Source: Crossaster papposus (lineage: Eukaryota > Echinodermata > Asteroidea > Velatida > Solasteridae). Taken from it: DNA of 64,000 bases. Positions 6,993 to 63,281 of this stretch are shown one piece after another (position 1 is the stretch's first letter; every line of letters starts with the position of its first letter). Below the pieces are notes generated by a model. The model was not told the DNA's origin, searched no databases, and saw only the letters and a list, made by a program, of their open reading frames with translations. Made by a program: the position numbers and the translations under genes. Location of the stretch: positions 248,001-312,000 of the forward strand of contig JBAIAA010000078.1 in the NCBI GenBank assembly GCA_037893245.1. The letters are read 5' to 3'.

Positions 6993-7602
6993 TATGGTGG
7001 CCCTTGAGGGACATAAAAGTCGTGATTTTTGTTAAAGACTAGTCCCGAAAGTATTCGCAACTATAGTCGTGAGTTTATTCGCGACTGGTCGTGAATATTT
7101 TTGCGACTAGTCGTAAATAAATCGCGACTAGTCGTGAATATTTTGTGATTTTTTTCGCGACTAGTCGTGAAATGATTCGCAAATAGTTGTGAATTTATTC
7201 GCAACTGGTCGTGAATATTTTTGCGACTGGTCGTGAATATTTTTGCGACTATTCGTGAATAATTCATGAGTAGTACTAAATATTTTCGCGACTAGTCCTG
7301 ATTTTTTTCGCGACTATAGTCGTGAAATTATTTGCAACTAGTCGTGAATTTATTCGCGACTGGTCGCGAATATTTTTGCGACTGGTCGCAAATATATTTT
7401 GAGACTGGTCGTGAATATTTTTGCAACTAGTCGTGGATAATTCGCGACTAGTCGTGATTTTTGTTCGCGACTAGTCGTGCCAAAATTGACGACTAGTCGC
7501 AAAACAACTAGTCGTGGAAAAAAATCACGACCATTCGCAAATAAATTCACGAATAGTCGCGAAAATATACACAATTGTTTGTGTCCCTGCAGGGCCACCA
7601 TA
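6993..7602. mobile_element. Foldback-like element with CGACTAGTCG tandem repeats
   Basis: The ends are a roughly 23-bp inverted repeat (TATGGTGGCCCT at the left, AGGGCCACCATA at the right, 20 of 23 matching), with the outermost TA consistent with a TA target duplication. The interior (about 7044-7570) is an irregular array of units of about 19-21 bp, centred on the self-complementary word CGACTAGTCG and joined by TGAATATTTTT or TGAATTTATTCG. No protein is encoded; open frames here are periodic artefacts. Confidence 0.7.
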
Positions 7603-8050
7603 TAAATTATCATTCGTTTAGGAGGTTTTCACCATAGAGCAAGGTGGTGGTTTCATTCATCACAAATTTAAACACCAAAGAGAAATCACAAATAAACGCC
7701 GGGGCCATGATTTGCCGTGTCGATGTACATTGTACATTGTACATGTTCCTCTCGAAAATTTCCTTTGTTTGTACTCTAACTTTTTCCGACGGCTCTCATT
7801 GGTTTTGTACACGAATCTCAATCGAGGTCGTCCTCGATTCTAACCCTAACCCCAATTCACCTTCGTGTCGCCAGGTATGTGTCCTCCATTTACACCATAA
7901 ACAAACGCATGTATACATACGGGTCAATCGCGGCGTGTCTGGACATGTTTTGTAACACAATAGCCCTTATAGGTCTGCACGTATTTGCTTAACCGTCCAT
8001 CACAATATCACGTGATATTGTGTCGGTGATCGCGGAATAAACAACACAAA
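7603..8050. other. No gene recognised
   Basis: Spacer between two tandem-repeat elements. An open frame at 7644-7955 shows no recognisable domain. Confidence 0.45.
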
Positions 8051-8638
8051 GGTCTTGGAACCAAGATATGGAATTCCAAAGACGACAAAACTGCGTCGCG
8101 TCGTGCCGTCGCCCCGACAGCACGACGCGACGGTACGACAGTCCCGTCGCCCCGTGCCGTCGCGTCGTTCCTCATTACTTTTATGCAGTGTCAAAGGCGT
8201 CGCGTCGTGCCGTCGTGGCGTCGCGTCGTGCCGTCGCGCCGTCGCGTCGTGCCGTCGCGTCGTGTTGTATTGTAGTGCCGTTGCGTCGTGCCGTCGCGTC
8301 GTAACGTCGCCCCTCCGCGTCGTACCGTCGCGTCGAGCCGTCGTGCCGTCGCCCCGTGTGGTCGTGCCGTCGCGTCGTGCCGTCGCGTCGTTTCGTTGCC
8401 AGTTATTATATACTTGTATACAAGCCGTCGCGTCGTGCCGTCGTGCCGTCGCCCCGTGCCGTCGTGGCGTCGCGTCGTGCCGTCGTGGCGTCGCATCGTG
8501 CCGTCGCGTCGTGCCGTCGTGGCGTCGCGTCGTGCCGTCTGCCCGGCTCGGCAAAAAGGGCTTGTGTTCAGAGCCAATAGAGGGCGCATTTTACAACAGC
8601 TGCAAGTTTGGTCGTCTTTGGAATTCCATACCAAGACC
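8051..8638. mobile_element. Foldback-like element with GTCGTGCC/GTCGC tandem repeats
   Basis: The inverted ends share GGTCTTGG and TATGGAATTCCAAAGACGAC (8051-8092 against 8608-8638), the left copy carrying an 8-base insertion. Inside, about 8090-8535 is a GC-rich array built from the words GTCGTGCC, GTCGC and GTCGTGGC. All six frames are open for long stretches because the repeat lacks stops, so the overlapping RRDGTTRR-type and SCRRVV-type frames are not genes. Confidence 0.65.
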
Positions 8639-8639
8639 A

Positions 8640-9138
8640 CGTCGTGCCTGTAAATAGAGCGCGCGTCGTGCGTGTGGAGAGCTCCGTCGTGCCTGTGGAG
8701 AGCTCCGTCTTGCGTGTGGAGAGCTCCGTCGTGCGCGCGTGGAGAACTCCGTCGTGCCTGTGAGTAGAGCGTCGTGCGTGTGGAGAGCTCCGTCGTGCCT
8801 GTGGGTAGAGCGTCGTACGTGTGGAGAGCTCCGCCGTGCCTGTTAGTAAAGCGTCGTGTGTTTGGAGAGCTCCGTCGTGCCTGTGAGTAGAGCGTCGTAC
8901 GTGTAGAGAGGTCCGTCGTTCCTGTGAGTAAAACCGTCGTGCCTGGAGAGAGCTCCGTCGTGTGTGTGAGTAAAGCCGTGTACTATTAAGGTCACTAAAA
9001 CAGCGCGGTGAGTGTTGTTTACTAGCGGCGCGTTGTTTAGCGGCGCGAGTGGATGATGGGGGGGGGGGGGAACATTTGATATCAAGGGGCTTGCCTTTAA
9101 TATTGTGACGTCATGACGACCTCGAGAATAAATATGTG
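8640..9138. repeat. Left arm of a 5-kb-spaced inverted repeat: minisatellite plus unique inner domain
   Basis: The outer part (about 8640-8975) is a minisatellite that mixes and often alternates two units of about 20-21 bp, both starting CGTCGTGCSTGT: one ends GAGTARAG, the other GGAGAGCTC. The inner part (about 8976-9138) is unique sequence ending CTCGAGAATAAATATGTRG. The reverse complement of the whole arrangement is at 14151-14887. Confidence 0.8.
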
Positions 9139-9639
9139 GGGCTGTAACTACGAAAGCTGTTTAAGCCATTAGATGCGTATAAATTAGTAGTAATAATAAT
9201 AAATAATAATATAAAGCATTTATAATGCGCCATCTATCTAGACAAAACCTATTCCGAGGCGCAACATAAAACACAAACATGACAAAGGAAAAATAATGAA
9301 CCAAAATAAAATGCAACAATAAATAAAACACAAAGGCAATTCAAGATCAATAATGTGACCCTAAGATCAAAGAGGATATCACAGTACCAACACACACTGC
9401 CCAGCTGCACATGGCAAACAAGCAAAGAGAGGAGAAGACCAGAATTAGCAGTTACAACAACTTAACAGCAATAACTGATTCCTGCCCGACCAAAATGAGA
9501 AAAAAATGGCCGAACATACATGTATTAAGGTATGTGTCAGCAATGCGATACCAGAAATCACATTAAAGACATCAAGTAAAAGCTCAAAATGAGTACATAA
9601 ATCACAATAAAATGTTTTGCAAAAACAATCAAATATTAT

Positions 9640-10030
9640 AAGCAGTTTCAAATGAGTTTTTAACAACTTTTTGAAAACATTGATGGAACTACAACTGCGA
9701 AGTTCGAATGGCAAGGCATTCCAAAGCTTGGGAGCAGCTGCATAAAATCCACGATCACCATACGACGAAACAGTTCTAGGGACAGTCAGAAGAATTTTGT
9801 TAGCAGATCTCAAAGTGCGTTTTGGAATATATGGAGAAAGAAGTTCATTAATATACACTGGTGCCATAGCATTAAGTGATTTCCAAGTGAGCAAAAGTAG
9901 CTTAAATTGAATTCTTTGACGAATTGGTAACCAGTGTAGTTGTTTCAAAATTGGCGAAATATGATCAAATTTACGAGTGCGGGTTAACATGCGTGCTGCA
10001 GCATTTTTATTGCGCTCCCTCCAGGACCAG
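9640..10030 (-). pseudogene. Non-LTR retrotransposon: C-terminal tail fragment
   Basis: The minus-strand frame contains FDHISPILKQLHWLPIRQRI, a LLLLTWKSLNAMAPVYINEL block and GFYAAAPKLWNALPFELRS. This is the conserved tail that follows the reverse transcriptase in Jockey/CR1/L2-like LINEs. The frame to its 5' side is non-LINE sequence. It is probably the 3' end of the same element family as the two pieces at 10387-12285. Confidence 0.7.
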
Positions 10031-10059
10031 CCTGTTCGAGAGCGCATTACATATTTAAG

Positions 10060-10370
10060 AATAAGTGAAAGTAAACAGATGATTAAATCAATTACACAAA
10101 TTAGAAATATAAGTAAAAGCCACACAGCACAAACATCTAAAGCACATACCACATAAATCAAACCAAAAGCCAATACCCCAAACAGTGTTACATATTTTAA
10201 AAATAGGTAAAAAGTAAACAGATAATTAAATCAATTACAACAATTAGCAATGTAAGTAAAAGCCATGTACATAGACATGAAAGTAAAAACCACACAGCAC
10301 AAACATCTAAACCACATACCACACGAATTAAACCAAAAGCCAATACACTGTACCCCAAACAGTGTCAGCC
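10060..10370. repeat. Tandem duplication of about 150 bp
   Basis: Two adjacent imperfect copies share the words AAACAGATRATTAAATCAATT, CACACAGCACAAACATCTAA and AAACCAAAAGCCAATAC. The block separates the LINE tail from the RT fragment and stops at a C run (about 10371-10386). Confidence 0.65.
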
Positions 10371-10386
10371 CCCCCCCCCCCCCCCC

Positions 10387-11637
10387 TGTGAATTCATTTG
10401 TAACAGAATGTCATTATTTAACTTAATAAGTGTTGTTTCAGTACTGTGGTTTTTCCTGTATGCTGACTGGAGAGGGGGGTACAAATCATTTACAGTCAGG
10501 TGGTCATGGACCTGGTTAAAAACCGCCCTCTCTATTAATTTAGAAATAAATGAGAGGTTACAAACAGGACGGTAATTCCCAAGCATTCTTGTGTCGAGGT
10601 TGTCCTTTTTTAAGAGTGGAGTAACAATCGACTCTTTCCAGTCTGTGGGAAACATTCCAGATGTCAGTGAAGTATTGATAATCCTGGTGATAACTGGTAA
10701 CAATACATCCACACAATCCACAACGACAGATGTAGGCATGGGGTCAAGCGAACATGATTTGCGAGCAGAGTTTGTAATGAGTTTCCTCACCTCCATTTCA
10801 GTCAGTGGCAGGAAGCAGTCTAATCCGCTGACAATAGGTGGAGTAATGTCGGCCTGCGGAGCTGTACTAGATGCTTGGCCATCAAGCTTCGCATGAATTT
10901 TGTCGATCTTTGAGACAAAGAAGCGCCCCATCTCATTAGCGAGCTCAGACTTGTGTACAAATGGGGGGAGGGGAGCATCAATATTTTGTTTTAATAACTT
11001 CTTAGTGACCTTGAATAGCTTCCCGGGGTCCGAAGAACTATCCTCAATCAAACCGGAGTAAAACAATCGCCTTGCCTCATTCATTAATTGATTAGTGACA
11101 TTTCTCCGAGTCCTGTAGGTATTCAAGTCAGAAGGATTTCCAGTACGTTTCCATTTCCGTTCAGCTTGCCTCTTCAGTCTTTTCGCAGCCTTGATGTCAC
11201 TATTGTACCATGGCACAAGGGGCCGGACAGTGATCGTTTTGACAAGCTGAGGAGCATGGCGATCCAAGGCAAGGTTTAAAGTCGTATTGTAGCTGTTCAC
11301 CAACTCATTCAGATGCTGTGGGGGGTTGCGGCATATCTCAGTGGCAGCAAGTTCAGTTCTCAACAACTCCCGGTCGATAGCTTTGATTTTCCTGTAAGAT
11401 GTTTCTTTAACAGGAAGAGGTGGTTTAGCGAATGACAAGTCACAAATCACCGAAAAGTGATCTGAAATCAGATGATCTGGTACAGGTGGGCTATTGACGA
11501 TAGCATCCAACTGGCGCGTAACAATTAAATCAAGTGTGTGGCCATGCTGATGAGTTGGTTTATCAACATGCTGTTGAAGACCATAGACTCCAGCAGCTCA
11601 GCAAAACGAAGAGCGTCACGGTCACTATTGACGTCCA
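10387..11637 (-). pseudogene. Non-LTR retrotransposon: endonuclease end and N-terminal half of RT
   Basis: The minus strand encodes the end of an AP-type endonuclease (DLIVTRQLDAIVNS, then PDHLISDHFSVICDL with the catalytic SDH), a basic linker (LVPWYNSDIKAAKRLKRQAE) and the first RT motifs (NYRPVCNLSFISKLIERAVF, then YRKNHSTETTLIKL). The frame stops at QMNSQ in a G run where the FDTVDH motif should follow. A frameshift lies near 11590. The missing RT half is found upstream at 11638-12285, so the blocks are out of order. Confidence 0.75.
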
Positions 11638-12285
11638 CCTAGTTGCCAGTAGTTGTTCATTTATACCATATAATAGAGAATTTCCATTGTCCAATCTCGA
11701 TATTACTAAAGCATGGACTAAAGTAGCTGCTGTATCGTCATCCATACGAATTTGATAAATGTTTCTGATTTGGAAATATGTAGCTTTGCAGACACGTTTG
11801 ATGTGATCCTCCATAGATAGCGTGTTGTCAAAAATAATTCCCAAATTACGAGCACTTGGCGAAGCATGAATGGGTGATGACACTATTTGAATAGAGTTGT
11901 TTGTGGCTCTGGATTGAAGGTATTTTGATGTGACTATGATGAGCTCAGTTTTGTCGTCATTTAATTTCAGTTTATTAGAAGTCATCCAAGATTTTATGTC
12001 CACAATACATGATTCCATGCGTTTGCGAGTAGCTAGTTCATCTTCGTTGTCATACAAATCAAATGGTAAATACAGTTGCGTATCATCCGCATACATGTGC
12101 ACCAGTAAACCATGTTTACGAGCAATATTTGCAATGGGAGCTGAGTAAATAGTGAAAAATTGAGGGCCCAGAACAGAGCCTTGTGGGACACCGAAGAGAA
12201 GCGGGAGGATTGAAGATAAACATCCATTTATGTTGACTGCTTGAGATCTATCACTCAAATACGATCTTATCCATTCAAGTCACTG
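11638..12285 (-). pseudogene. Non-LTR retrotransposon: C-terminal half of RT
   Basis: The frame starts LEWIRSYLSDRSQ and carries GVPQGSVLGP, the catalytic YADD (MYADDTQLYL), a KLNDDKTE motif, RNLGIIFDNTLSMEDHIK and an ending at GINEQLLA. It then joins directly to endonuclease sequence (DVNSDRDALR in another frame) at about 11638. Catalytic residues are intact, but the piece is cut at both ends. It contains exactly the part absent from the neighbouring fragment. Confidence 0.75.
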
Positions 12286-12485
12286 TTTGAACCTGGTGTC
12301 TAACTTCAAACAAGTACTACAAAGCTCGTTTTAAGTTAGCCGCGTTTAAATAACCATTGGAGTTAAACATGTGTTTATAACAAACAATAGCAATTCTTAA
12401 ACATGGTACGGGGGTTGTTTAGTGAGTTTTCTGAGCCATTTAGAAGCCAGATATGTACACAGAAAGGTAGAAAGGTGGACAGGAT

Positions 12486-12689
12486 GGATGCGCTTCAAAT
12501 CTTCTCAATTGCACAAGAGGAGGCCAACTAACAAGAAAATCGTCATGGTCGCCAATACCAACGTGCACCAAGAGTTTTTAGGGACAAGGTGAATTCCTTA
12601 GAAGAGTATGACGAGGAACATTTCATCAGACGTTTCAGAGTTAGCAAAGACACGTTGACGATTTTCTTGGACTTCTCGGATTGTATTTA
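12486..12689 (+). pseudogene. PIF/Harbinger transposase, N-terminal remnant
   Basis: The frame begins MDALQIFSIAQEEAN, meets one stop, and continues RVFRDKVNSLEEYDEEHF followed by RRFRVSKDTLTIFLDF. The basic start, the RVFRD word and the acidic stretch leading into an RFRVSK helix match the beginning of HARBI1-type transposases. The DDE nuclease domain is absent: the frame ends at a TAG (about 12687), next to the tail of the opposed Myb-like gene. This is an internally deleted copy. Confidence 0.6.
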
Positions 12690-12712
12690 GAACACCCAAT
12701 TCTTTGTTGTCC

Positions 12713-12907
12713 TTATAGCAGATCGGCTTTTACGGTCATGGACATTTCTGAAGTGATAGCTTTCCAGGCATCAGCTTTTTTCTGGTTGGCTTTAGTGTCA
12801 CATCGTTTGTCACCAATAATGGAATTAAAGTTCCCCATGGTCTCAACGAGAGCCATCCTTTCGTCAGCAGTGAAATTGTCACTGTGTTGCCTTTTGGTAT
12901 CAGCCAC
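12713..12907 (-). CDS. Myb/SANT-like DNA-binding protein of a Harbinger element (partial)
   Basis: The 64-residue frame contains DNFTADERMALVETMGNF followed by a DTKANQKKADAWKAITSEM block. This is the first part of the Myb/SANT-like domain carried by the second gene of PIF/Harbinger transposons, which helps the transposase bind the element ends. It is divergent from the transposase remnant to its left on the plus strand, as expected if the middle of both genes was deleted. It ends far short of a full protein. The start codon at 12907 is natural for this family (short basic leader). Confidence 0.55.
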   Translation of the reverse strand: MADTKRQHSDNFTADERMALVETMGNFNSIIGDKRCDTKANQKKADAWKAITSEMSMTVKADLL

Positions 12908-13400
12908 ATGGCTGTAGAGTATCTAAGTAAAGACCTGCTGAAGATTTATCTACTGAGGCCTATCGTATGTTCATACTGTTGCGCAATCCTCTATATTACA
13001 ATGTATTTAAAAATAGGGACCACGGTCAATAAGTTTAGACTGTCCAACTTACACGAGGATAACTAAACAACCATTTAAGATATTTTAGTAAGAGTTGTTT
13101 AATTCAGGTGTTTAGGAAGACGCGTGTAACTTGGATTTATCCACGTCTATATACTACACTCGCATAAAGATTAACAGCTTTCGTATTTTTTTTTCAATTC
13201 AAGAGGTCGCTCTTTGTTTGTTTTGGACGCGTACATTGCAGTAAACTTTGAAACCTGCCTACCGAAAAATTGACGCTTTTCTACTAGATAAGTATAGCTG
13301 TAAGTGCAGACACTAGTGATAAAAATACAGAAGAGTAGTCCAAATTAGTGCGGTTGTTGAGAAATTAATCGTTTATACAAAGAGAGAAACCCAGAAACAA
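12908..13400. other. No gene recognised; probable right flank of the Harbinger derivative
   Basis: AT-rich sequence with several GTTGTTTA-like words that also occur left of the transposase remnant (about 12414-12424 and 13066-13075). They may be parts of decayed element ends, but no clean inverted repeat was found. Confidence 0.35.
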
Positions 13401-13531
13401 AAGAATGTATAAATGTATAGCCTAGGCTAGGGCCTAGCCCTATCACTATGATAATGTAATGTATTAAGACGTACCACATCATTATTGTCTTAATACATTA
13501 CATATCATGTATACATTTATACATTCTTTTT
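13401..13531. repeat. Interrupted hairpin
   Basis: AAAGAATGTATAAATGTATA near 13401 and AATGTAATGTATTAAGAC near 13454 both recur as reverse complements at about 13484-13531. The outer and inner stems are separated on the left by a CCTAGGCTAGGGCCTAG-rich insert. Confidence 0.55.
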
Positions 13532-14150
13532 TCTGTGGTGTTACCACATTTTTTCATGTAAATAAATATTAGAACATGCATGTACATGCATGTTGTAATG
13601 TCCTTTTCTTCATGAGATAACGGTGGTAAAATTAAAAAATGGATGAATGAAAACAATCCACACATCATGCCTTCAAGTTCAATGAAGGCTTCAGGAATCC
13701 TGTTCATGCTTCTATTGGTTGTCCTTGAAAACGTCATTATGTTTAAGCCCTCATCAGGCTTAATCATACGGCGTACATGTAGGCCAAGTCTAACATTTCT
13801 TTGATATTTAAAATGTTACTGGTATACTTTGCATCCATCTTAGTTTGATAAGTAGGAAAATTATAAATGTATGTTTTATTGGTTCACTTCCACCATGGAT
13901 TTATGCAACGTTTACTGCAATGTACGCGTCCCAAAAAGAAGAAGAGCGACCTTTTGTGATCATTCCTAAAAAAAGCGCGAACATTTTGGAGCCTACCACT
14001 GGATCAGAGGGGTACTGGGTAACACAGTAAAGCAGAGGGAAGACATAAAAAGGGCAGTAAATTAAACAACAGCTTTTGGGGGGTACCGCTATAGTTGAAT
14101 TGAAAAGAAATCCCTTCAATTTGAATATACTGTACCCACGGCCAAAACAC
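13532..14150. other. No gene recognised
   Basis: Short open frames on both strands (13498-13767, 13845-14119) have no recognisable domain. The stretch lies inside the large inverted-repeat pair. Confidence 0.4.
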
Positions 14151-14887
14151 TACATATTTATTCTCGAGGTCGACATGACGTCACAAATTTAAGGGCATGC
14201 CCCTTGATATAAAATGTTTCCCCTCCATCCACTCGCGCCGCTAAACAACGCGCCGCTAAACAACACTCGCCGCGCCGATAGTACACCATACGACGGCTTT
14301 ACTCACAGGCACGACGTACGGCTTTACTCACACACACGACGGAGCTCACCTCACACGCACGGCGACGCAGCACGCACGACGGAGCTCTCCACAGGCACGA
14401 CGGAGCTCTCCACAGGCACGACGGAGCTTTCCACAGGCACGACGGAGCTCCCCACAGCGCACGACGGAGCTCTCCACAGGCACGACGGAGCTCTCCACAG
14501 GCACGACGGAGCTCTCCACAGGCACGACGGTTTTACTCACAGGCACGACGGTTTTACTCACAGGCACGACAGTTTTACTCACAGGCACGACGGCGCTCTC
14601 CACAGGCACGGCGGTTTTACTCACACACACGATGGAGCTCTCCACACGCACGACGCTCTACTCACAGGCACGACGGAGCTTTCCACACGCACGACGGAGC
14701 TCCCCATACGCACGACTGAGCTCTCCACAGGCACGACGGAGCTCTCAACACGCACGACGCTCTACTCACAGGCACGACGGAGCTCTCCACACGCACGACG
14801 CTCTACTCACAGGCACGACGGAGCCCTCCACACGCACGACGCTCTACTCATTGGCACGACGGAGCTCTCCACACGCACGACGATATA
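14151..14887. repeat. Right arm of the 5-kb-spaced inverted repeat
   Basis: This is the reverse complement of 8640-9138. The inner domain is about 14151-14285 (starting CTACATATTTATTCTCGAG; containing GACGTCAC and CTCGCGCCGCTAAACAAC). The outer minisatellite is about 14286-14887, with units CACGACGGAGCTCTCCACA and CACGACGCTCTACTCACAG. Long open frames in it (HDGALH- and GTTELST-type) are repeat artefacts. Confidence 0.8.
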
Positions 14888-14918
14888 CATATAAGTGTCC
14901 TATATAGAACACCATACA

Positions 14919-16297: not shown

Positions 16298-16344
16298 AAG
16301 GGGAATTATGTTTGACTCGTCGATGTCATTCAGAACGCATATCA

Positions 16345-16975
16345 AACATGTTATTCGTTCAGCGAATAATTATACACTAAAGTTGCGCGCATTTACCTTG
16401 TCTCCAGTAGTCTTGTCAAACCTCAGTATTGATGAGCAAATTCACCAAGTTGCTTACTGGCACAGTTACCATATTAAAACATTATGGAAAATCAATTATG
16501 AACAATGATAACATTGTGATATTTAGCCCAGCAAACAAAAACGGAAAAAACGAGGTGTCCGCAAATTGGGCTAAAAGTATAGGTGAAGTTCAAGGAAATC
16601 ACTAAAATTATCAGTGAGAAAATATCTTAACGTTGACGTAATTATATATATGCAATAATACATGTACTCTTTTATTTTAGGGGCTTTCCTTGAACTTGAA
16701 GTCTCATGTCAAGCAACCGCTTCATCTACTTTTTAGCCCAATTTACGGACATCTCGTTTTCCCCTGTTTTTGTTTGCTGGGCTGAATATCACATTGTTAT
16801 CATTGTTCATATGATTTTCCATAAGGTTTAAAATATGGTAACTGTGTCACTGAGTATTCTTGGTGAATTTAAAGCTCATCAAAACTGAAGTTTGGCAAGA
16901 CTACTTGGTGTTATAATGAAGACAAGCCAAAAATGCGAGCAACTTTGGGGTATAATTATTAACCATTTTGAATGT
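16345..16975. repeat. Long imperfect inverted repeat (arms about 230 bp)
   Basis: The left arm (about 16345-16577) and right arm (about 16720-16975) are reverse complements with scattered mismatches. Shared words include GAACAATGATAACA, TTTAGCCCAGCAAACAAAAA and AAATTCACCAAG. The spacer is about 140 bases. Transcription through it would give a long double-stranded hairpin. Confidence 0.75.
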
Positions 16976-19273: not shown

Positions 19274-19281
19274 CCGTGAGA

Positions 19282-19515
19282 CAGGGATGTAGTCGAGTCC
19301 ATCACAAGTCCCTGCAAGTCCCTGTAAGTCCCTGCAAGTCCATCACAAGTCCTTCAGTTCCAATTCAAATCACAAGCTATTCAAATCAGCTTTGACAAAA
19401 GCATTTCTTTGTCATTGTTCATCCAGTTACTTGTGACTGTCTTTATGAAGGGACTTGTGACTGGCTTCACGAAAGGACTTGTGAACGGACTTGCAGGGAC
19501 TCGACTACAACCCTG
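19282..19515. mobile_element. Small foldback-like element with AAGTCC repeats and an 8-bp target duplication
   Basis: Ends are CAGGGATGTAGTCGAGTCC at the left and its near-perfect reverse complement at the right. Just inside, AAGTCC words spaced 10-13 bases (AAGTCCCTGC, AAGTCCATCAC) form short arrays in opposite orientation on each side. The element is flanked on both sides by CCGTGAGA (19274-19281 and 19516-19523), a perfect 8-bp target-site duplication, so this is a bona fide insertion. Confidence 0.8.
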
Positions 19516-19523
19516 CCGTGAGA

Positions 19524-36071: not shown

Positions 36072-39000
36072 TCATCTGTGGTCAGAAGAGCGGAAGAAGT
36101 TGGTCAGGGAAAATGGCCGTCGGGCTCCCTTGGTTTTCCGACTGATGAGGTCACCTTGAGAGGGAAAACAACAAAGAGTGCCGGGTATAACAAATTATGT
36201 CAACTTGGTTTGCAAGGGTTGCATGGCCTCACTGTGAGGTCGAAAGACGTGAAAACCTTTTGTTGGAACAAAAAACGTGAGAAGTAAACAACAGGGTCCC
36301 ATTATCACTTTTTGTAATATGTGAAAAGGGGACAAAAGGTATTCACGTCTTGGGGCCTCGCACTCACAGTGCCTCGTGGTCTAGAGCATTTAATTCATGG
36401 TCTGCGGGTGATTTTGTAGGTCGTAGGTTAATGTGCGGTGCTTATATATGGCTTTATCACTAACGGTCTCCACACGCTTAACATTATTACCCTGGTCATT
36501 GGGCCCATGAAACATTCCAAATACTATCTCAGCTCCCTGGGGAGTATACAGCTCTATGCTGCCATTTTGGCGCAAAGCAGCTAAATTCAACCAAAATAAC
36601 CATCTCTGCCCTCACAGGTACCGGAGCAATGAGTGACAAAGTGCCTTGCCCAAGGGCACACGCACCATAGTCCCTGGCCGGACTCGAACCCACAACCTGT
36701 AGCTTTACCTACAGATTACAAAGTCAATGCTCCAGACCACGAGACCATGGCACTCCACTGAGGTTCCACCCGAGCTCAGGGTTATGGCGCGTGTGCCCTT
36801 GGGCACTCATTGCTTCTCCCCACTTGGGAGAAGTTGGGTACGTGAGAGCACTGATGGTTATTGTGGTTGATTTAGCTGCCTTGCGCCACAATGGCTGCAT
36901 CGAGCTGTATACTCCCCAGGGAGCTGAGATGGTATTTTGAAGGTTTCACTGCCGATTGAGCAGGGGTAATAATGCTGTAGCATCACAAGTCTCAGTATTG
37001 TTGGTGACGTGCGATTTATAAATACACATAATTATTAACCAGTTCGCACATGGATTATTTTGACATTGACCGAACCCAGGCACAGGATTTTTGTTCACGA
37101 ACGCCGATCCAAAATGAGCTCAGGCCGGCATCTGTGGGTAGCGCACCCCGATTTCCGGCCTCGCTCGCTGCAACACGCTCGCTCCGACCAACTGGTTAAT
37201 ATTATTGTATTTATTCCTTGATGAACTGTAAACCAGGCAGCATGTTTCTTTTAAGGCACAATTCGCCATCTATCAGAATAATTTCCATTATGAAATATAC
37301 ATTACTGAAATACAAATTAGATTTGTTGCCTTCCCGTCGTGTATTTACGCTGAATATTCAGTTGTCCTAAGGGATTCTTCCGAAAAAAATAAATGACTAC
37401 AAAACAATCATGATGACGTTGCTTCCTTAACCCTTGCTTTGCTAAACGCTCCAAAACACTACAATATTCGAAAATTTTGCTAAAAGTCAATTGCCCATAA
37501 ACAGGGCAAAAGTTGTTTAATTGTTTAAAGGTAGGATGTTTGCAGATATCAAACATTTTACTACCGAATCATTGAAAAATTTTTTTTTTTTTAAATGTAA
37601 ATAATGATTCTAGTCATCCAGCAAAATGATTGCGCTAGATATCCCGTCATTGCTTCTAAAAATTGAATTTTAGAAAGCAAACGTTAGCACAAAAATGTTG
37701 AGAAATAGCGCTTAGGTTTAGCAAATTTGTCTGCTATACATATAGTTAGCACAAGTTTTTCTGCTACCTGTAACTGTTAACCAGTTCGCGCCGGAGAACG
37801 TAAATATACATTCAAAACCGATGACGGATGACGGATAAACACGCCACGAGCAAGGCCGGAAATGTCTGTCAGCAGCAAGCAAGGCCGGAAATGCGTGGGT
37901 CTGCTTCCCGGTGCCATCGGCCTGAACCCGCCTCGGATCGAGTTTTGTTTAAAATAATCCCGCGCCTCGGCTTGGTGATGTGAAAATAATCCCGCTGCGA
38001 ACTGGTTAAGCAGCGCCTTAAAATTGGCCCCAATTCGCATTGGAGGACAGAAAGACACGCAAAGTTTTTCCAGAAATTAAAATGGAGGACGAATAAACAT
38101 TTCACAAGCAAGGCCGGAAATATCTGTCAGCAACTGGCTCACAGAGAGCCAGGTCAAAAATATTAGGGTGTGCTACCCACAGATGTTGTCCTGAACCCAT
38201 TTTGAATTGAGGTTTGTAAAAAACAATCCCGTGCCTGGGCCCGGCAATGCCAAAATAATCCCGGCGTGAACTGGTCTAGTCTAGTTCATCTCAATGTTTT
38301 TTTCTCACCCTTTTCTGAGAATGTAGCAAGACACAGACGATCCATCTTATTACTGAAGGCCGTCTGTGGTTCCTTCAATGGAAGAATTCCAAAAGCTGCC
38401 AAATAATCAGAACAAAAAGGAAAATTAATTCATTTTCACATCCTAATAAATCACTTTCTTCCTTTTTTGAAACTACATGTACATGTACGTATTGAAAATA
38501 AAAAACTGGGTAGTTGGTGTAATCATACTATGAATAAGAAAAACGGTTGAAACAATTGTTTTTCAGTCTGCTTACTCCCCAATCATATTTGTTCATCCAG
38601 TTTCATCACATTACACAAGTCCTTAAACTACCAAGTTTTTTTATTTTATTTTTTTATAGAATAGGAAATTGGGTTTGCCAGGAAATTGGTAACTGGTTTA
38701 TTATTTTGACCAACCGTACAGTTACTGCATAATTAGGCAAATAAAAAAATATATTGATACCAAAATGTGTTTTTTACCTGGTGCCGATGCCTCCATAGCG
38801 ACTCTGAAACAAAAGAAAACCAAACGTAAATAAAACTATTATTTGTACTAGTTTCTTGGTTTTTTTTAGGTTTGTTTTTGTTGGGGGGGGGGGGGGGGGT
38901 TAGGTGCAGACATTGTGCATGTACATGTAAATGGAAAAATATTGTGTCTTGAATACTGTAGTTTTATTGGTCTAGAAAATATGGACTTGTGATGGACTTG

Positions 39001-41363
39001 TGATGGACTTGTGATGGACTTGTGATGGACTTGTGATGGACTTGTGATGGACTTGTGATGGACTTGTGATGGACTTGTGATGGACTTGTGATGGACTTGT
39101 GATGGACTTGTGATGGACTTGTGATGGACTTGTGATGGACTTGTGATGGACTTGTGATGGACTTGTGATGGACTCAACTCGGTAAGCACTGATTCATAAT
39201 GTCGAGCTTGTTATTGTATTCAAGATTCAGTTTTGTTTAATGGTATTGATGATGACAAAGTGTGCATACAAGGGAAATGTGAGGAATATGTATATTATCT
39301 TGGGTTTTGGTTTTCCATTGTAAAGGTCGGTTTACACTTGGCATGAAAGCAAACATGATAAAAGTAAATTTATAACGCCACGGCACATTTTCATGCTGCA
39401 AATTCGCAATAAATGTTGAACAAATTTCAACTTTTCAACCCTGGCTAACTTTCACAGCGAATGGTTTGTAACATCAATTTCACATTGCATCGTATGAACA
39501 GGGCCTAATTTCATAGCGCTGCCTAAACCGTAAGCAGAATGCTTACTGTAGCAAAAACCCATGCTGCTGCATAAGCACCATGCTTGAGCTTGCACGCCCT
39601 TGATGATTTCGATTGTTAGGTCACTGATTTAAGTAACTTTTTCCTCTGTGGTTAAGCATGCTTTTTCTGTGCTTACTCTAAACAGTCTCTATGAAACGAC
39701 GGAGGCTGTATTAAGCACAAAATCACTGGTTAAACAGCGCTATGAAATTGGGCTGTGGCCTTCAAAATCATACAATTTTGCAGATTGAAAGCCGGTTCTT
39801 ACTCGAATGCGTGAATGAAAATGCAAATTTTTGACGTCCCGGCTCATTTACGCACTGCAAACACATTTCAACTCCGGCTAACTTTCACAACGAATGCTTT
39901 TGACATCAATTTCGCATTCACATGAGGTATGAACAGTAATAAAATGATGTACTGTACATTAAGGATGAACTTTTGTTAGTTTTGGAGGTTTGTTCGTAAA
40001 CTTGTATGCATGAAGACAATTTCATGTAGGGTACAGGGTACACCATGCCATACAAATACAATGCATCTCATACCAACACAAAAGAAAATACCTGTGTTAT
40101 GAACCAATTTGTAGTGTGCAAAATTTAAAGAACGGTGCTTGATAACAAATAACCTTATGAGGTGTTATATATTCCGAGAAAACACTATTCTAAGATTTTG
40201 ATTCCAATTCAAAATTTGCAGAGTCACAATTTGAATTGCGACCACAATCTGCGTTCAGAGCGCGTGCTCATCCAGCCGATTGTAGCTACCGGTACTCGTG
40301 TGTGCCACCCACTGAACCAACCAGCAATTGCGCCCACATGCTCTTGTTCAAACGCTTGCACGCACATCATTCGTGAAATACAAACTAACTACTTAAGGAA
40401 ATGCTTCTCTGAAACTTGAGGCAAAACGACCTGAGATTGCTTCGTAATAGACTTTGCGAAGACTTTACTGCAGCAGTGAATGCACTTTAATAATGCTCAT
40501 ACAAGATGCGGTGAGCAGTAATTATAGTGTTTTTTTATAGTGTTTATTTATATGCATGACTTTGACAGTCTGAAACATTGAAAGTTCATTTCGGTCTCGA
40601 TACGATTCGCTCACAACGTCGATCTGATCTGGGTTTTGGCATGACTGTGTAACACCTGTCTGATTTGAGATAAGCTGTAAATTGTCAATACACCGATCCA
40701 GTAGGCCACCCCTTTGAAATTGCAAACCATTTTGTCCGACATAAATTCTTTACTTTAGTATTTTTCACAACACACTTTTTGCCAATTGTACATGTACTTT
40801 TATTTCACTTGTACACTTCGATTCCATTATCCACCTGGCTTTTATCACCATAGTCATGGTTAAGCAGTGTTGTTATGTACCCTGAATAAGAGGGAAAGGT
40901 AGTTTTTGGCCATTTTCTAAGCCAAAGACATTACATACTTGTAATTTATTTACACTTGGATGTAACACTGTGCACGCGCCGGCTAGGCAAGCGTCACATT
41001 GCTAGGTAGTTACTATGGTGGGCGTGGCAGACTGGATCAGTGTATTAAGCCGTTGTAACCATCTCACTAATTTCGTGTGCTAACTCCTTTGGACAGATTC
41101 AGTGGATAATTGAGCATGTTACAAGCACATACATGTACTCATATCCGCCTCATGCGTGTTAAAACAAAATTTTCCAACGAAGAGGTTAGCACACTGGATA
41201 ATAAGTGAGACTGTTATACAGTCAAGCAGGATTCATGTTAGTACACTGAGATTTTTGGGGCATGCAAGGAATCCATCAACAGGTGCAATGAACAGGTGCA
41301 ATGAACAGATGCAATGAACAGATGCAATGAACAGATGCAATGAACAGATGCAATGAACAGATG

Positions 41364-41417
<54 letters not shown>

Positions 41418-44400: not shown

Positions 44401-47400
44401 GAAGGATTCTCAATCCATTGGTATAGGTAGTTTTGCCTTTGGGTGGTGAAGGTGTTCGTTGTGTTCGTTTGTTCTGGGCCACCCTGTATAACAAGCAGCC
44501 CTGTTGAGTTAGGCTTAGTGTATTCATCAAAAGTTACTGCAATGTTTACCTTAGTAAACCATTCATAACAGTCTTCTTTTGGTGCTTTCCCTCCATGTCT
44601 TGTTTGTTCAGTTCCTCTACGCTGGCCTCAATCATCGCGTTCATCATCACGGCCTATAGGAAGAATGAATCAAGTTTCTCATGAGATTTGGTCACCCTTT
44701 GTTTTCTCGAAGGAACCCTTCTCTCAGAAGGTTGCAGAATCCCAAAAGCAGAATAAAACAGATTTGTTCAAGGTGTTAAAACAAAACCTACAATCTGACA
44801 CTTGGTTGAAGAAATAAATCAATTTATATAAGAGCGACTGGGTATAAAACAGATTTTAAAGAAAGCATTGTGTCGAGTTCCAAGTATTGGGCATTGTTTA
44901 CATGCAGTCATGCATAATTGAGTCCTGTATTATGCTTGACATCATACGCACTGCTTCATGAGTATGTCATTAGCACTGTCTTAATTAACCCATTACAAAC
45001 CCATTAAATTATCAGGAATGGGTGGATTTGGGGGGTTGTATTTTATAGTCTTTTAACTGATCTTTTAACTGACCTTTTAACTGAACTGAAGTTTTATAAT
45101 CATGGATGCTGAGAAAAGCAAGAAAAACGGCGTTCGGCAGTTGTTCTTATGGTGTAATCGCTGTCGTAATTGCCGTCTGGCGATCGTGATTTTTTTATTA
45201 AAAAAACATTTTTTTCTGAAAACAATTACAGAATATCTAGTGCAATCATTTTGCTAGATGCCTACAATCGTTATTTACTTTCAAATAAGTAAGATATTTT
45301 TTTAATAATTCGGTAGTAAAAAGATGTGATATCTGCAAATGGTGTATCCTACTTTTAAAGGATTGAGGCAATCTCCACTGAACAAATTCACCGACATAAT
45401 GGATAATTAGAGAATTGAGGATGAATCAATCCTTTACTAGGGCTGTGCATTTACGGTTAATTTGGGAACTGGGTACCCGATTAAAAAAAACATTAACCCC
45501 TGGGGAGCGTCTATGCTATGGCCGCAGCATGCTAATCTGTCCGAAATGCTGTCAAGTGTGCTGTGCCGTAGAACACGGCCCATGTGACGGGTGCACGCTA
45601 AGGTCCATTGTGCAGTGCAGCTGCTGGACAAAGGCTGCTGTGCAGTCATGCATATAATCCGGTGACTGATGAATTAATACCCGTGCCAAGGAGTTAAAAG
45701 AAACCCGGCCTCAAAATTCCAATCTCGGAAGTTGCTGTTCAGCTACCCCATCGGTGAAAGTTACTACCCTTTTAAAAGGTGCATACTATGCATTGTAATA
45801 TGTACAGATTGTTATGGGTGCTCGATCAACTGACATCTAAAGTTGGATATTTAAGTATCTAATTCTGATGCACAGCCCTTTTTTTTACAGGATTTAGGAT
45901 GGTTCCTAGCCAAAAGGGCTTAAATGGTTAGGGTTAACCGCTGATGAGGGTTCGTGGTAAATGATGACCAACCTGTTTGGAGAATATCTGCAGTACTTTG
46001 CTGCAACGTTTGCCACCTTCTTGGGAGTCAAACTCCAACCACAGGCAGGGCATGCAGTCGACGCTGTCCCTGGCCGGCTCAGTGTACTCCCACGACAACT
46101 CATTGTACGTCAGGCCCAGAATGATATCCTGATAGAATTCAAGAAACCCAGTTGTTTATCAAGTTATTACAAGTCTTCTGGAGTCCAATGATTTTACCCA
46201 AGGTACATTTGCAAGTCATCACAAAGTCATCAGTTTTTCCGGTATTCAAAACAAGTGACAGATAAACCCGTCACGAGCAAGGCCGGAACTGTCTGTCAGC
46301 GACCCGCTCGAAACAAGCAAGGCAGGATATATCAGAGTGTGATACCCACAGAAGCCAGCCTTAACACGTCTCGAATCGAGTTTCGTGAAAAACAATCCCG
46401 CGTCTGAGCCCAGTCAATGTCAAAAAAAAACCGGCGTGAAATGGTTAATCTGTCTTGTTTTACCTTTCTCCAATTATGTTCTGCTTTCAAACATCTTTGA
46501 AACCTATTTCATCCCATTTTTATTAGGTCATCATTCATTCACTGTAACACAACTGTAGGATTTTTAATGTCATTTTCCCAAGAATCAGTTTTACCACTTA
46601 AATTAAGTTGCTGGTCTATATTTCCCTTACTGAACTCAGTACCCCTTAACCAGTTCGCGCAGGATGATATATATAAACGCAAAGATTTCCCAAAATTCAA
46701 AACGGATGACGCATAAACACGCCAAGTTCAAGTTCGGAAATGTATGTCAGCAGCGCGCAAGGCCGGAAATGCGTGGGTGTGCTTCCCGGCACTATCAGCC
46801 TGAACACGCTTCTGATCGAGTTTCGTTAAATCCCGCCCGTCGGCTCGGCGTTGTTAAAATAATCCCGGCGCGAAAGCCGGGATTATTTTAACAATATTTT
46901 TAACAAAACTCATTCCGAGGCGGGTTCCGGCCGATAGTGCCGGGAAGCCCACCCACGCATTTCCGGCCTTGCTCGCTGCTGACAGACATTTCCGGCCTTG
47001 CACGTGGCTTGTTTATGTGTCATCCGTTTTGAATCTGGGGAAAACTTTGCGTTTATATACATCATCTGGCATGAACTGGTTAAATGTTGTATACCATTGA
47101 AAAGCTTAACCCCAACTACATTTTGTTTTACCTCTGTCTTGGATACTGCATTTTTATTAGTTTAAAATTGTCAATGGTACCCGTGCAATTTTCATATACA
47201 CATTATAGCTATTGACGTTAGTAAACTGTAGTGGAGCAGCGATTGAGCAGATGATCAGCTGTTTAGAGCGTGCGTAAAGTTGAGTTCATTTCATTTGCAA
47301 TGTAAAATAAATGTTTACTTGAACGTTTCATATCTTCAGTCCTCATAGTGTCTGCTGAGCTTCAAGACAAAGGTACATAACAAAACAATTGTAGTCAACA

Positions 47401-50400
47401 ATTGTCTAGTATCGTAGTCCACGACTTACCTGTTTGGCAATGTCTGTAATAAAGATTGATTCCTTGTTGATGCCGACATGTACTGGTCTGTCCTTAGTAT
47501 CGCGTAGGCTCATACCTGAAGAAACTTTCTCAATTTGTCCGCTAAAGAACACACACCTGTAGAGTAAACATAATAATTAGTTCAGAAAGCCTGGCTAAAT
47601 GAATCGTTACAATCTCATATTAGGTTGTCTCATCGGTGCTGTCTAAAGCTGCGTTCGCATTGGACTTTTTTTGGTAAAACCTACAGAGAGCTTAACCAAA
47701 TTAAATCCAATGCGGACAGGCGGTAACATTGTCAAATTGTCCATTTTACCCTCCGCAACCGTAAGATCTACAGGCCCAAGCTTCTAGCGGAGGATTTAAC
47801 ACCGTGAACCTTGACAATCACGTACGGTAACATTTGACAATATTAAGTCCAATGCGAACGCGGCTTAAGAGCTTATGAAAAAATGCACAAGTGTGCTCAG
47901 GTGGGACTCGAACCAATGACCTCCTTTGTCCTATAAGATTGTAGAGTTCCTCTAGAAACTGTACCTTCTTCTCATTGTCTTCTCTCTGCAGGTTTCTTCC
48001 GGTTTTTGAGGGATCATTAGTTTTATTTATCCAGAACAAATTAATAATACTAGTGCAGATATTTATTTTAACCACTTCATCACCGAAAATGCCATTATTA
48101 AAAAAATATAAAAAAATCATCTCGTCTGTGTTTTTATTATTAATTATATTACTGTCTTTTATTTGTTGGTTCAGTTCCCGACACATGTGTAGCTGATATG
48201 CTTATGACGAGAATGTGTCCCGAATGGCAATTTCAGATGCATCTCATCGTTATAATCAGCAATTATTTGAATTACTATCAAAATCCTACAATAGTGTTTG
48301 CCCGGAATATATAGCATTCACAGAAATAAAAACTTCATCAAGTTAGTTGTCAAGCACCTGTCCTAAGATTTTGAGCACTTTTTCTGCTTCCAACGATAAA
48401 ATGTAACAAATGGCACCTTAACAATGTCGGCACCTTAACAATGTCGGCACAACAATGTCTATTATCTCTATGTATAAAATAACCATGTTTTAGGTGTCTT
48501 TTTTATTGTCTGTACTGTGTTTTTGGAACAAACATCCTATATCAGGCCTCAACCTCTACAGCGGCCACCAGCGGCCATTGCCGCGATGCCCCGGCGAATT
48601 GCCGTGGAGCCCCTAAAAAAAACACGTACCTTACGGCCACTTGGCCGTCGTGCCCTTTTTCATTTATCCATTATATTATGTAGTCGAAGGTGTTATTAAA
48701 AATAATGTTAACGTTGTGACCCATTACGAAGATCAATTGTTTCGACGTACGTAGCGTACGCTCTCCCGCACACTAGTTTTCATAAATGCTGCTTGCGCCA
48801 TGCATCGCGCATGTACTTGCATCGGAGAACGTGGCATGGCAACCATATCAAACGTAGTTGAGTTGTTTACTACTAAAAACACGGTACCAGACTACTCGTG
48901 TATAGACTGGCCAAAAATAATTTGCGATTAACGCAAAACAATATGGCGGACCAAGTCTGCGCAGGCGCGGCGTGCTAAGCTCGTCGCACCGAACATGTAG
49001 GGCACTAGCAGAGCGCCCTCTGTTGTTCGGTGCGACGAGCTGTGCACGCCTGCGCAGACTTGTTCCGCCATGATGTTTTGCGTTTATCGCGAATTTTTGT
49101 AATGTTTTTGTTACGCAGATTTTGAGACAAATTACACCAAACGGAACCACGAAAAAATCCTAATTTTAGCGAAATATCCATGCGCTATAATAAATTAACC
49201 TGCATGCCGAGTTTGAGACCGAATGATTTTCATGAAATAATTTTTTTTAAATCCCGTTTTTGTTTTGCACTGGGGCTAGGCATAAACATGTACGTTTACA
49301 TAGGCGAATGATTTGGCGTTAGGGGGATTCGTTTTCAATTTTCATAATCATATTTATTTCTAAGAATATCGTTTTTTAAGAATTTTATATTCAACTTCAA
49401 GGTTGAATTTTCTGAAACAGCGGATTTTGTTGAGCCTTGAGGTTTGGTTGGTGGGGGGGGGGGGTTGACTCGGAGAGTTGGGGGGGGGGGGGGGTTGACT
49501 CGTAGAGTTGGGGGGGGGTTGACTCGGAGAGTTGGGGCGGTGGTGATCCGGGGATGAACAAATAACAGTTTGAAAATGGCCTTGGTGCCCTTTAAGTTGG
49601 CCTTGGTGCCCCTTTCTTTTTTGGAGCCTTTGAGGCCAAGTGGCCTTGACCCTCTGAAGCTTAAGGTTGAGGCCTGCTATATTAATGACCAATTTCTTAA
49701 GCACAGTTAAAGTACTAATTACCCGTAAAATGGAAGTTTCCAGCAGAAGTTGAGGAATTCTTGGTGGCATTCTCCTTTATTCTTGACGCTTCCAGAGATC
49801 CGATCCCAGTGCATCATTACTCTCTGTTCCAACATCGCAAACCCTGCAAATGAGAGAACAACTTTCATTATTAAACCTAAGCCCCCTCGTGTGATCTACT
49901 AGAGACTTTGGGAAGAATACATGTACATGTAGTATCCTGCCGCCACTTTTTTGTTTATGTACAAAGTCTATGGATGAGAGTCAAGTTAATTTTCTAACAA
50001 AATAAAAAATTGTTTCTCTGTCCCGGTCTTGGACTCCCAGATTCATATCTTTTCGACATTTTTGTAATGACTGACCATCATTGAGGTAACATATGATGGA
50101 AAAAGTGGTGTCAGGATTCAACATTCTACGTCATCTTTGCAAATTCCAACACCGTGGTAAACTCTACACATAAAACGATTGGATGCTGATTACGGCTTAA
50201 CCAGTTCGCGCCGGGATTATTTTAACATCACCGAGCCTAGGGGCAGGATTATTTTTAACGAAACTCGATCCGAAGCAGGTTCAGGCCGAAGCAGGTTCAG
50301 GCCGATAGTGCCGGGAAGCACACCCACGCATTTCCGGCCTTGCTCGCTGACAGACATTTCCGAACTTGAACTTGGCGTGTTTATGCATCATCCGTTTTGA

Positions 50401-53400
50401 ATTTGGGGAAATCTTTGCGTTTATATACGTCATCCGGCGCGAACTGGTAAACTACAGTGATGTATGCATTCCAACAAAACATGCATATTTTTGATGGGTT
50501 GGCTGGGGTAGTTCGAGTATCATACGTTGGTCAAGAGAGCCATCTCCAAACCAACCTCTGATTTATAAAGACATGCAAATTCGACCGTGCGCGCCAGCCA
50601 ATCGGAGTTCACCATGACGTCATTTTGGTGCAGAAATCTGGACAAAGCTGCTGATTGGCTAATTTGGCTGCCGTGTTTTTGTAACATAGCAACGGGTATC
50701 GGAAGACAAGATATCGCGATATGTTTGCATAATTAATCACCGAATCTGCTTGCATCTCGTAGATGCTCGTCCAACGAGCGATTATTCCACAGACTAGGGG
50801 TAGAAAAAGTTATAAGACACTAAAGAATTAAAATATAATTAAAACCTTAACACTTTTACCAAGTTATCCAATTCTTTAAATTTTGTTGCATCCAAAAAGA
50901 GCCTTGTTTTGCGGCCAACAAAAAAGGCAACAGGGGCTTTAAATCAAAAATGAAAAAAAAATTACACAAGACTATAGAGGTTTCAAATCAAATACCAACA
51001 ATCTGAACTCGCCACTCATACCAAAGCCGTGTGCATTTTAAATATTTATTCCAAGGGGTTAAAATATGTTGGGCTTCAGAAAGGTCAACAAAATAAATGT
51101 AAACTATTCGCAAACTATCTGTTTCAAAATTCTTTAACGGGACAGTAAACTTATTAGCCGTTTCCCTCTGAAATATATCAATTGTTGACATAACTCGTTG
51201 TAACTTTTCTCTTTTTAATCTATTCGAGTTTATTAAAGGTCACTGGAGTGAAAGTCCGACATTCCAACGCAGCCCTAAAATAGCAACACCCCTTTCACAG
51301 AAAGTTCGACGGTACACTGTAGTTTAAATCTAATTGAAGGCACAATGATTGCCCACTGAACAGGGAATTGAATCTAATAATCTAACCTGCTGATTCCTTC
51401 ATTGGTGTTATTTGCAACGCTGATTTTTAAAAGATTACAATGTAATCGCAAAGATATTACTGCAGGAGCAAAGACATTAACAGTTCACGTTTGCTTGCTT
51501 TGGTGTACTCTCCTAAAAGCATTGCTGCTGTCCTGGAGAGGGTGGCACGTAAAGGCGCCTCTGGCAGCCGGCCACATCGACCCAATTTAGCCAGGAACAC
51601 CGGGGCGAACCCCTTCTCTTAGCGATAAGTGTTACTGGGTTCTTTTACGTGCATTATAATGATTATTATTATACAATACACGGGACCTACAGCTTTACGT
51701 CTTATCCGAAAGACGAAGCAATAGTGGTTTCAGTGCCTTGCTTAAGAACACAGGTGTCGAGGCCGAGATTCGAACTCACGCTCTGCGGAACAGAAGACCG
51801 GGTTCTTAACCGCTCGGCCACGACACTCCACATTCTTTATTAAAGGGCCTTGTTAAATCGAGTCACTTTCAAAACCGGAACTTGTTACAAAAAAACATGC
51901 AAGGCTGAGCTGTTTGTAAAAGTAGAGAGTGCATTTAGTGGTATTTTGGCTTTTAAAGGTACCGGTAGTATACATCATCTGTTTTGGGTTAGGGGATTCA
52001 TATTTTATAGTAAATATTGTGACGCTGACCTGTTTAAAGTTGTGTTTATAGAAGCTGAAAACCCCCCCAAAAAGAGCTGTTCTTGCAGTCTGGTTCCTTG
52101 ACTTCCTTCAGACGGATTCAATAAATTGGGGGCAGTGTTTAAAAATAGTCAGGTACAATTCCACTTTTCTTAAAACAAAATCACATCGGGTGTCGAGATT
52201 TCACAGGATGCTTGAGACTGTTATTGACTTACAGTCAAGTAAGGTATTTCATAATAATTCATCTCCATCCCAAAACATAAATAGCCATATCTCATTTTCT
52301 ACTACCTTTAGTATTTTTTAACCATCTTGATCCTCCTTTGTACATGCACGATGGAAGGTACATGTGTAATGAATCACTACATGGAGAAAAAACAAAACAA
52401 ATAATGTTCACGATTCTTAGTAGATACATTTATATTTTTGAGTATCTGACAGAGTTGTATTCGATTCTTTGCGAGTCAAATTTTACAAGTCCAGTCACAA
52501 GTCCAGTCACAAGTCCAGTCACAAGTCCAGTCACAAGTCCAGTCACAAGTCCAGTCACAAGTCCAGTCACAAGTCCAGTCACAAGTCCAGTCACAAGTCC
52601 AGTCACAAGTCCAGTCACAAGTCCAGTCACAAGTCCAGTCACAAGTCCAGTCACAAGTCCAGTCACAAGTCCAGTCACAAGTCCAGTCACAAGTCCAGTC
52701 ACAAGTCCAGTCACAAAGCTAGTCACAAGTACCGGTAACTAGTTGAACCATGACAATTTAGGAATGTTTTTGTTCATTTGAATAGCTAGTGCCTTCAAGA
52801 CTTGAAACTGAAGGACTTGTGATGGACTTGCAGGGACTCAAATACAACTCTGTGTCTGACCAGCGGTACACACTTTCTTCTGGCCTTCTGTTCCTGTAAG
52901 CAAGGTTCCAATCCCACCCAGGCAATTAAGTTGTTCTGGTTTTTCAGTCACAGCGGATATTCTTCCTGGGATATCATTTGGAAGACTTCTTCCCATTTAG
53001 CCTTTGTTTCACAAGTCAATGTTTGGCCAAGTGATTAAGCCAGTTCTGTATTCCAACTGCGCATGTGCACAACAAGATTCAATTTTTTTTCTTAGGATAA
53101 ACTTGACAAATAAATGCACGAAAGGTTATGGGGGAGATGGTAACTGAATCTGCATCCTGTGCAATTTTTTTGTGCAATCGAAAAGACTATGGAAAAATCT
53201 GTTCAAACAAAAGTTTGGACACACAAGGCACTTTACTATCCAATCGGTGTTTTTTTAGTATTACTAAAACACGATGATCTCTGTAAATCTGCTGGTACCG
53301 GTAGCTGGAATTTCACCGCATTCAATGAAATGGGTTTTTTTCCCAAAAGAAAAATTGTCAAATCTTGTTGTGCACATGTGCAGTTGTAAAACTGAGCTGG

Positions 53401-63250: not shown

Positions 63251-63281
63251 AGAGACGAGGGCCAACTTGATCGACACACTG

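Follow-up and report, generated by a model that had tools for sequence, protein, structure and literature searches.

Short tandem arrays in a sea star genome window probably derive from the end motifs of hAT-type and IS3EU-type non-autonomous transposons

Introduction

Tandem units on miniature inverted-repeat transposable elements (MITEs) and on the arms of fold-back elements are already known from Xstir, miDNA4, Tetris and Galileo. Sea urchin TU elements have a fold-back form with short repeats in their arms. We analysed five loci, elements A to E, in a stretch of 64,000 nucleotides of the Crossaster papposus genome (contig JBAIAA010000078.1, positions 248,001 to 312,000; hereafter the window), which is a 64-kb part of one contig in a genome of 1,023,315,904 bases and 1,841 contigs. 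The elements are of two types, hAT-type (C and D) and IS3EU-type (A, B and E), and each is compared here with published systems.

Xstir, carried on Xmix, and miDNA4 are MITEs of Xenopus that, like the elements here, hold an internal sequence in one to many tandem copies. The Xstir repeats derive from the element itself, as here; miDNA4, in contrast, is listed as Tc1/mariner and its repeat is thought to have been captured (PMC9659126, PMC12628747). End-specific spacing of the units, present in the hAT-type family here, is not described for Xstir or miDNA4 in the available text of those papers. In Tetris and Galileo of Drosophila the long inverted arms hold tandem units that originate in the arm, again as here (PMC4079207 for Tetris). 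The Tetris units are ∼220 bp and its target duplications 8–10 bp, whereas the units here are 8–41 bp and the duplications of A, B and E are 6 bp; Galileo belongs to the P superfamily, unlike the elements here. The idea that additional sites affect transposition efficiency is not new, since it has already been proposed that extra transposase sites in fold-back arms make transposition more efficient (PMC4079207).

IS3EU elements have TA..TA ends and usually 6-bp target duplications (PMC10045372), the fungal ones ending in TAYGG..CCRTA (PMC12730594), and these features are common to A, B and E. The accessible parts of both papers describe neither array-filled arms nor Ulp1-like pieces such as those in the longer B copies. 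Lists of satellite repeats from oyster and beetle include some with similarity to IS3EU (PMC8268682, PMC5844308), and the link between satellites and IS3EU as such is therefore already published. Transposases of hAT elements bind short repeated subterminal motifs (Herves, Ac, Tol2, Tag1), and the motifs of Ac and Tol2 differ between the two ends (PMC3143072). In Herves-like hAT elements a short motif is repeated inside the ends, and its left and right arrangement is different in some of them, as here; unlike in those elements, the rows in the hAT-type family reach tens of units, of AAGTCC as a putative binding motif. A small search of open-licence literature met no description of IS3EU fold-back elements with arrays filling their arms, nor of an array register that depends on the element end.

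Results

Elements in the window

The loci are probably non-autonomous cut-and-paste transposons of two types, in which motifs belonging to the element ends have been multiplied into rows. Their parts in the window are as follows (strand where assigned).

6993..7602: element A, IS3EU-type, non-autonomous, TATGGTGGCCCT..AGGGCCACCATA, 610 bp
7037..7541: array in A, ∼22-bp units around CGACTAGTCG
8061..8066: left target duplication of B, CCAAGA
8067..8630: element B, IS3EU-type, TATGGAATTCCAAAGACGAC ends, 564 bp
8198..8543: array in B, GTCGTGCC-type
8631..8636: right target duplication of B, CCAAGA
8640..14916: element E, IS3EU-type fold-back, left end lost, with a piece of a long interspersed nuclear element (LINE) inside
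8640..9137, plus strand: left arm of E, with an array of ∼21/41-bp units at 8656-8976
10365..12258, minus strand: LINE reverse-transcriptase piece between the E arms, frames 10365-11510 and 11563-12258
14151..14916, minus strand: right arm of E, with an array at 14293-14882 and a terminal inverted repeat at 14895-14916
19274..19281: left target duplication of C, CCGTGAGA
19282..19515, minus strand (from core orientation): element C, hAT-type MITE, basal 234-bp form
19516..19523: right target duplication of C, CCGTGAGA
38981..39174, plus strand: fifth array, 17.6 × 11 bp, ATGGACTTGTG, without recognisable ends
52450..52851, plus strand: element D, expanded hAT-type copy of the same family as C, flanks GTATCTGA/GTGTCTGA
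52485..52730, plus strand: array in D, 20.5 × 12 bp (ACAAGTCCAGTC)

Matched inverted ends were present at 6993-7017/7578-7602, 8067-8092/8605-8630, 19282-19300/19497-19515 and 52449-52477/52825-52853, and at all four loci Tandem Repeats Finder placed arrays between them. The design proposed in an earlier note, inverted ends enclosing arrays, was thus confirmed, with the bounds of B corrected to 8067/8630; the outer GGTCTTGG/CCAAGACC stretches at B are flank and contain its 6-bp duplication CCAAGA. A pair of arms that the note took for a variant of this design is also real (long inverted arms at 8640-9151 and ∼14136-14888), but it belongs to an element of its own, E, whose arrays are confined to the arms, with none in the middle, and which encloses the LINE piece. 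E adjoins B on the side of its lost left end, and its right end is CCATA at 14916.

End patterns matched four, three and two times in the window against shuffle means of 0.30, 0.06 and 0.00, one of the three matches being the palindromic partner of another. Compared with 600 random placements in the window, the inverted-arm scores were modest (p 0.048–0.083), owing to the abundance of other inverted repeats there, and the case therefore rests on genome-wide evidence.

The hAT-type family

C and D are members of one hAT-type MITE family. The genome was searched with the end pattern CAGRGTTGTAKTCGAGTCCCTGCAAGTCC, allowing ≤3 mismatches, which gave 2,880 + 2,957 = 5,837 matches, while the reversed-pattern control gave none. 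The first 70 of the 100 places listed among these, all with 0 mismatches, were taken as a sample and gave 69 pairings of ends, 65 of them distinct by sequence; six loci gave no pair. Both ends have short terminal inverted repeats and begin CAGRGTTGTA... An 8-bp target duplication was exact in 38 of the 69 pairings and had one mismatch in 18, so that 56/69 had ≤1 mismatch; when partners were swapped, 101 of 20,000 draws had ≤1 mismatch. Exact duplications of 6, 7, 9 and 10 bp were found in 0, 1, 0 and 0 pairings. Target duplications of 8 bp and short terminal inverted repeats starting with CAG are both hAT traits. The core of D is too diverged for the core pattern used, and D was assigned to the family by its ends, duplication and unit for this reason.

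The six unpaired ends were considered as possible autonomous copies and rejected, having instead a degraded partner, a nested insert or a very long array. Their longest frames, inspected by eye with no search aimed at hAT transposase, contained no transposase. L034 and L039 (L numbers denote genomic loci read individually) resemble nested insertions by eye, and L086 does so by spacing. At L090, the copy starting at 1001 is broken by a different sequence (CCCCTGTCACACCGGAGC..) that carries CGTAGTGG-type repeats. The left flank of D was used to look for another copy of this locus or an empty site, and neither was obtained: besides the window, 39 rows matched only the first ∼110 of 300 bases, at 88–93% (40 scored of 2,104 candidates), which is a dispersed repeat.

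The IS3EU-type families

A, B and E represent three IS3EU-type families, with end sequences TATGGTGG / TATGGAATTCC / TATGGTGTTC, all of which start TATGG and end CCATA. For B, a 26-base end pattern matched 92 + 93 times in the genome, with none in the control, and among the 100 matches listed there were many facing pairs separated by about 0.1 to 7 kb. Each of the seven B copies read (window, L099-L102, L122 and L123; 559-6,968 bp) was flanked by an exact 6-bp duplication, and no two of these were alike.

The search for A gave 586 first-look candidates, 40 of which were scored, and both ends were present at the thresholds used in 14 of the 28 loci examined. A TA-dinucleotide (mariner-like) duplication was initially assigned to A and was replaced by 6 bp after independent sites had been read. 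The window copy lies inside an older repeat that nine other copies also carry. Outside this shared flanking repeat the 6-bp duplication was exact at 3/3 sites (L003, L012, and L011 with its twin L021), and within it there were 1–3 mismatches (the window copy, which is L001, and L002, L004, L006-L010, L017 and L023). We read the copies in the shared repeat as one insertion that was amplified along with its host repeat. Near two of the A copies other arrays were seen: at L006:2160-2500 what looks like the start of a further element (GCCCCAGTCCCACTGAAGCC) precedes CCCCGGAT-type repeats and perhaps belongs to an additional transposon family of short tandem units, and L003:1201-1365 is a row of ACCAACTCGGACCC-type repeats.

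For E, the arm search (297 candidates, 40 scored) recovered inverted arms in pairs at several loci. Three complete copies have a common site, with an exact CGTAAC duplication. Eight further loci were read at both ends, of which five had both ends and three lacked one; exact duplications were CTTATA, CGTGTG and TAGCGG (twice, with the same flanks). Counted by independent sites, the 6-bp duplication was exact in 4/5.

Genome-wide, ends recur together and target duplications are present, so that the outcome named in the earlier note as refuting its view was not obtained, and the loci stand as mobile elements, in agreement with that note. Its description of them as unrelated in sequence does not hold, since C and D have ends and duplication length in common, as A, B and E have their end type and duplication length. 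A single mobilising system is not supported either, the duplications of 8 bp (hAT-type) and 6 bp (IS3EU-type) pointing to two.

Fold-back form and longer copies

The likeness in architecture to fold-back transposons, also proposed in that note, holds in the fuller copies of A, B and E. Array-filled inverted arms surround a core in A copies of 1,073-1,332 bp (L003, L011, L012), in the B copies L099 and L102, and in E copies of 2,766-3,133 bp (L103-L105). Most of this core is missing from A and B in the window, where B is an internally deleted relative of copies of 0.9-7 kb.

The longer B copies with the same termini (L099, 6,080 bp; L102, 6,968 bp; L122, 3,927 bp; L123, 6,472 bp) were considered as autonomous elements and rejected, as a transposase was recognised neither by Pfam in eight frames of L099 nor by eye in the other three. 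L099 gave two collinear Ulp1-protease matches below the cut-off (16.3 and 13.4 bits versus 20.7; E 0.0089 and 0.071) and two further sub-threshold Pfam matches. The frames of L102 are nearly the same, Ulp1-like pieces included, and the two copies are 99.3% identical across 4.7 kb at different sites, which on sequence comparison suggests recent movement of B. Within the B copy L123, positions 1235-2431 hold an open frame of 399 residues that contains CCHC zinc knuckles and looks gag-like by eye.

End-specific motif register in the hAT-type family

In both types the tandem unit includes a short motif that is also found a little way in from the ends. This motif is AAGTCC/GGACTT for the hAT-type family and GTCGTG for the IS3EU-type families. 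The spacing of the hAT-type motif was counted in the 63 of the 65 distinct elements with a recognisable core, which was used for orientation. At the left end, 215 of 221 gaps between motifs were multiples of 12 bp and none was of the 10/11 type (10, 11, 20, 21 or 22 bp), whereas at the right end 320 of 323 were of the 10/11 type and none was a multiple of 12 bp. Strongly expanded copies contribute heavily to these totals; the per-element count is free of that fault and shows both registers by majority in 59 of the 63 elements. The commonest end lengths were 98 bp on the left and 102 or 112 bp on the right, and the lengths of expanded ends agree with the end-specific spacing.

Strongly expanded copies keep the register of the end that has grown, with 10, 22, 23, 28 and 33 motifs in the left-expanded copies and 10, 10, 23 and 47 in the right-expanded ones. 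Unit variants were CAAGTCCAGTCA and CAAGTCCTTTCA on the left, with TTTCGCGAGTCC in an unpaired copy, and GGACTTGCAG and GGACTTGTGAT on the right. Left expansion was commoner in the CAGAGTTGTATTCG subfamily (4/15 versus 1/48, p 0.0097), replacing a looser count (6/15 versus 2/48, p 0.0015) that had included a nested insert; right expansion was alike between subfamilies (0/15 in CAGAGTTGTATTCG versus 4/48, p 0.56). Most basal copies already carry the unit motif and its spacing, in 2-6 copies. The unit of the array at 38981-39174 equals the 11-bp right-end unit of this family, and the array may be a relic of it.

A motif shared by A, B and E

GTCGTG/CACGAC was the only hexamer among the 20 commonest in all three of the window A, B and E arrays, ranking 3/230, 5/256 and 2/227, respectively. 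Counted from the element end, the motif first appears at 28 bp in A, 34 bp in B and 35 bp in E. It points inward in B (orientation counts of 21:2 in the left arm and 3:15 in the right arm of L099; 9:3 and 2:14 in L101) and in E (11:0 and 0:25 in the window; 21:0 and 0:15 in L103). The left arms of A lean the same way (10:3, 15:5 and 7:3), as does one right arm (2:6). These patterns suggest, but do not prove, that A, B and E have a binding site in common.

We tentatively propose, at somewhat below even chances, that GTCGTG is recognised by a single IS3EU-type transposase, which mobilises several families with different termini, their arms being arrays of its sites; that the motif of the hAT-type family is kept in a fixed register that differs between the ends (12 versus 10/11 bp); and that array length tunes competition for transposase.

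Observations weighing against these interpretations

Several observations weigh against the explanation favoured here. The flanks of window A, GAAAGT/TAAATT, differ at 2/6 bases and make a poor duplication, E has no duplication at L118/L119, and 13 of the 69 hAT-type pairings have ≥2 mismatches within the 8 bp. The hAT-type sample, 70 of 5,837 matches with perfect ends, is biased toward well-kept copies. Pfam found no transposase in eight frames of L099, and none was recognised in the frames of L102, L122 and L123, which were inspected by eye only. GTCGTG orientation is mixed in the A right arms of L011 and L012 (9:10 and 9:9) and reversed in the right half of window A (7:1), and shuffling the units produced some hexamer shared three ways in 3.6% of cases when dinucleotides were shuffled and in 0.1% when mononucleotides were.

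How the arrays arise

We favour growth of the arrays from the end motifs. AAGTCC and GTCGTG would be binding sites for a transposase supplied in trans, with a few copies as the working minimum. A row of such motifs would be a substrate for slippage or unequal exchange, which lengthens it, and some copies would reach tens of units without any change in ends or transposase. Growth may thus be a side effect, perhaps favoured since extra sites aid binding, and would not require transposition.

The earlier note suggested instead that transposition itself creates the arrays, as might happen through slipped gap repair on excision or copying. Array unit and length do vary between insertions while the ends stay constant, which would fit; we nevertheless judge this route unlikely on account of L011 and L021. 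These are the same insertion on two contigs, with one mismatch in 1,077 element bases and a single gap, exactly as long as one 22-bp unit; their left flanks are identical over 1000/1000 bases and their right flanks over 954 of 974 aligned columns. Whether the two are alleles or a recent duplication, an array can gain or lose a unit without the element moving. This single case weakens the need for transposition and is still compatible with a contribution from it.

Capture of pre-existing satellites that afterwards spread with the elements, the model proposed for miDNA4 in Xenopus (PMC9659126, PMC12628747), could draw on dispersed short-unit arrays without ends, such as 38981-39174. It appears quite improbable here: most basal hAT-type copies already have the motif with its spacing, the period is set by which end expands, and the motif in A, B and E begins 28-35 bp from the end. 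Finally, satellites unrelated to one another and flanked by inverted repeats by chance, a notion the modest in-window arm scores might encourage, can practically be dismissed given the genome-wide recurrence of the ends and the exact duplications; this reading is refuted for C, D, B and E, and A has three other sites with a duplication and a window copy without a clean one.

Other features of the window

Tandem Repeats Finder reported 57 rows in the window. Reverse-transcriptase matches were found in four of the five large frames scanned, and an Rfam scan of the window at the gathering threshold gave zero matches. Repeats outside the elements include the following.

29867, 34608, 37768, 46646 and 55363 (direct), 46895-47086 and 50195-50451 (inverted): dispersed ∼240-bp family containing AAAATAATCCCG
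4766-4961 and 63381-63576: dispersed repeat of 196 bp, the two copies inverted and 89% complementary
4763-4868: further inverted partner at 4906-5011
61494-61974: long G-rich array of GGGGGGGCATGGGGCTTA units
62804-63254: 90-bp unit × five, 95% match, with flanking inverted ends not above chance

Discussion

The elements show an origin of dispersed short-unit arrays in a large eukaryotic genome, as rows of a motif inside transposon ends, and three seemingly unrelated arrays are joined to one minor transposon superfamily. Because its ends number in the thousands and its copies are constant at the ends and variable in their rows, the hAT-type family forms a series for testing the number of putative transposase sites against mobility. 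If the transposase proposal is true, the genome of this sea star would hold thousands of natural site-number variants.

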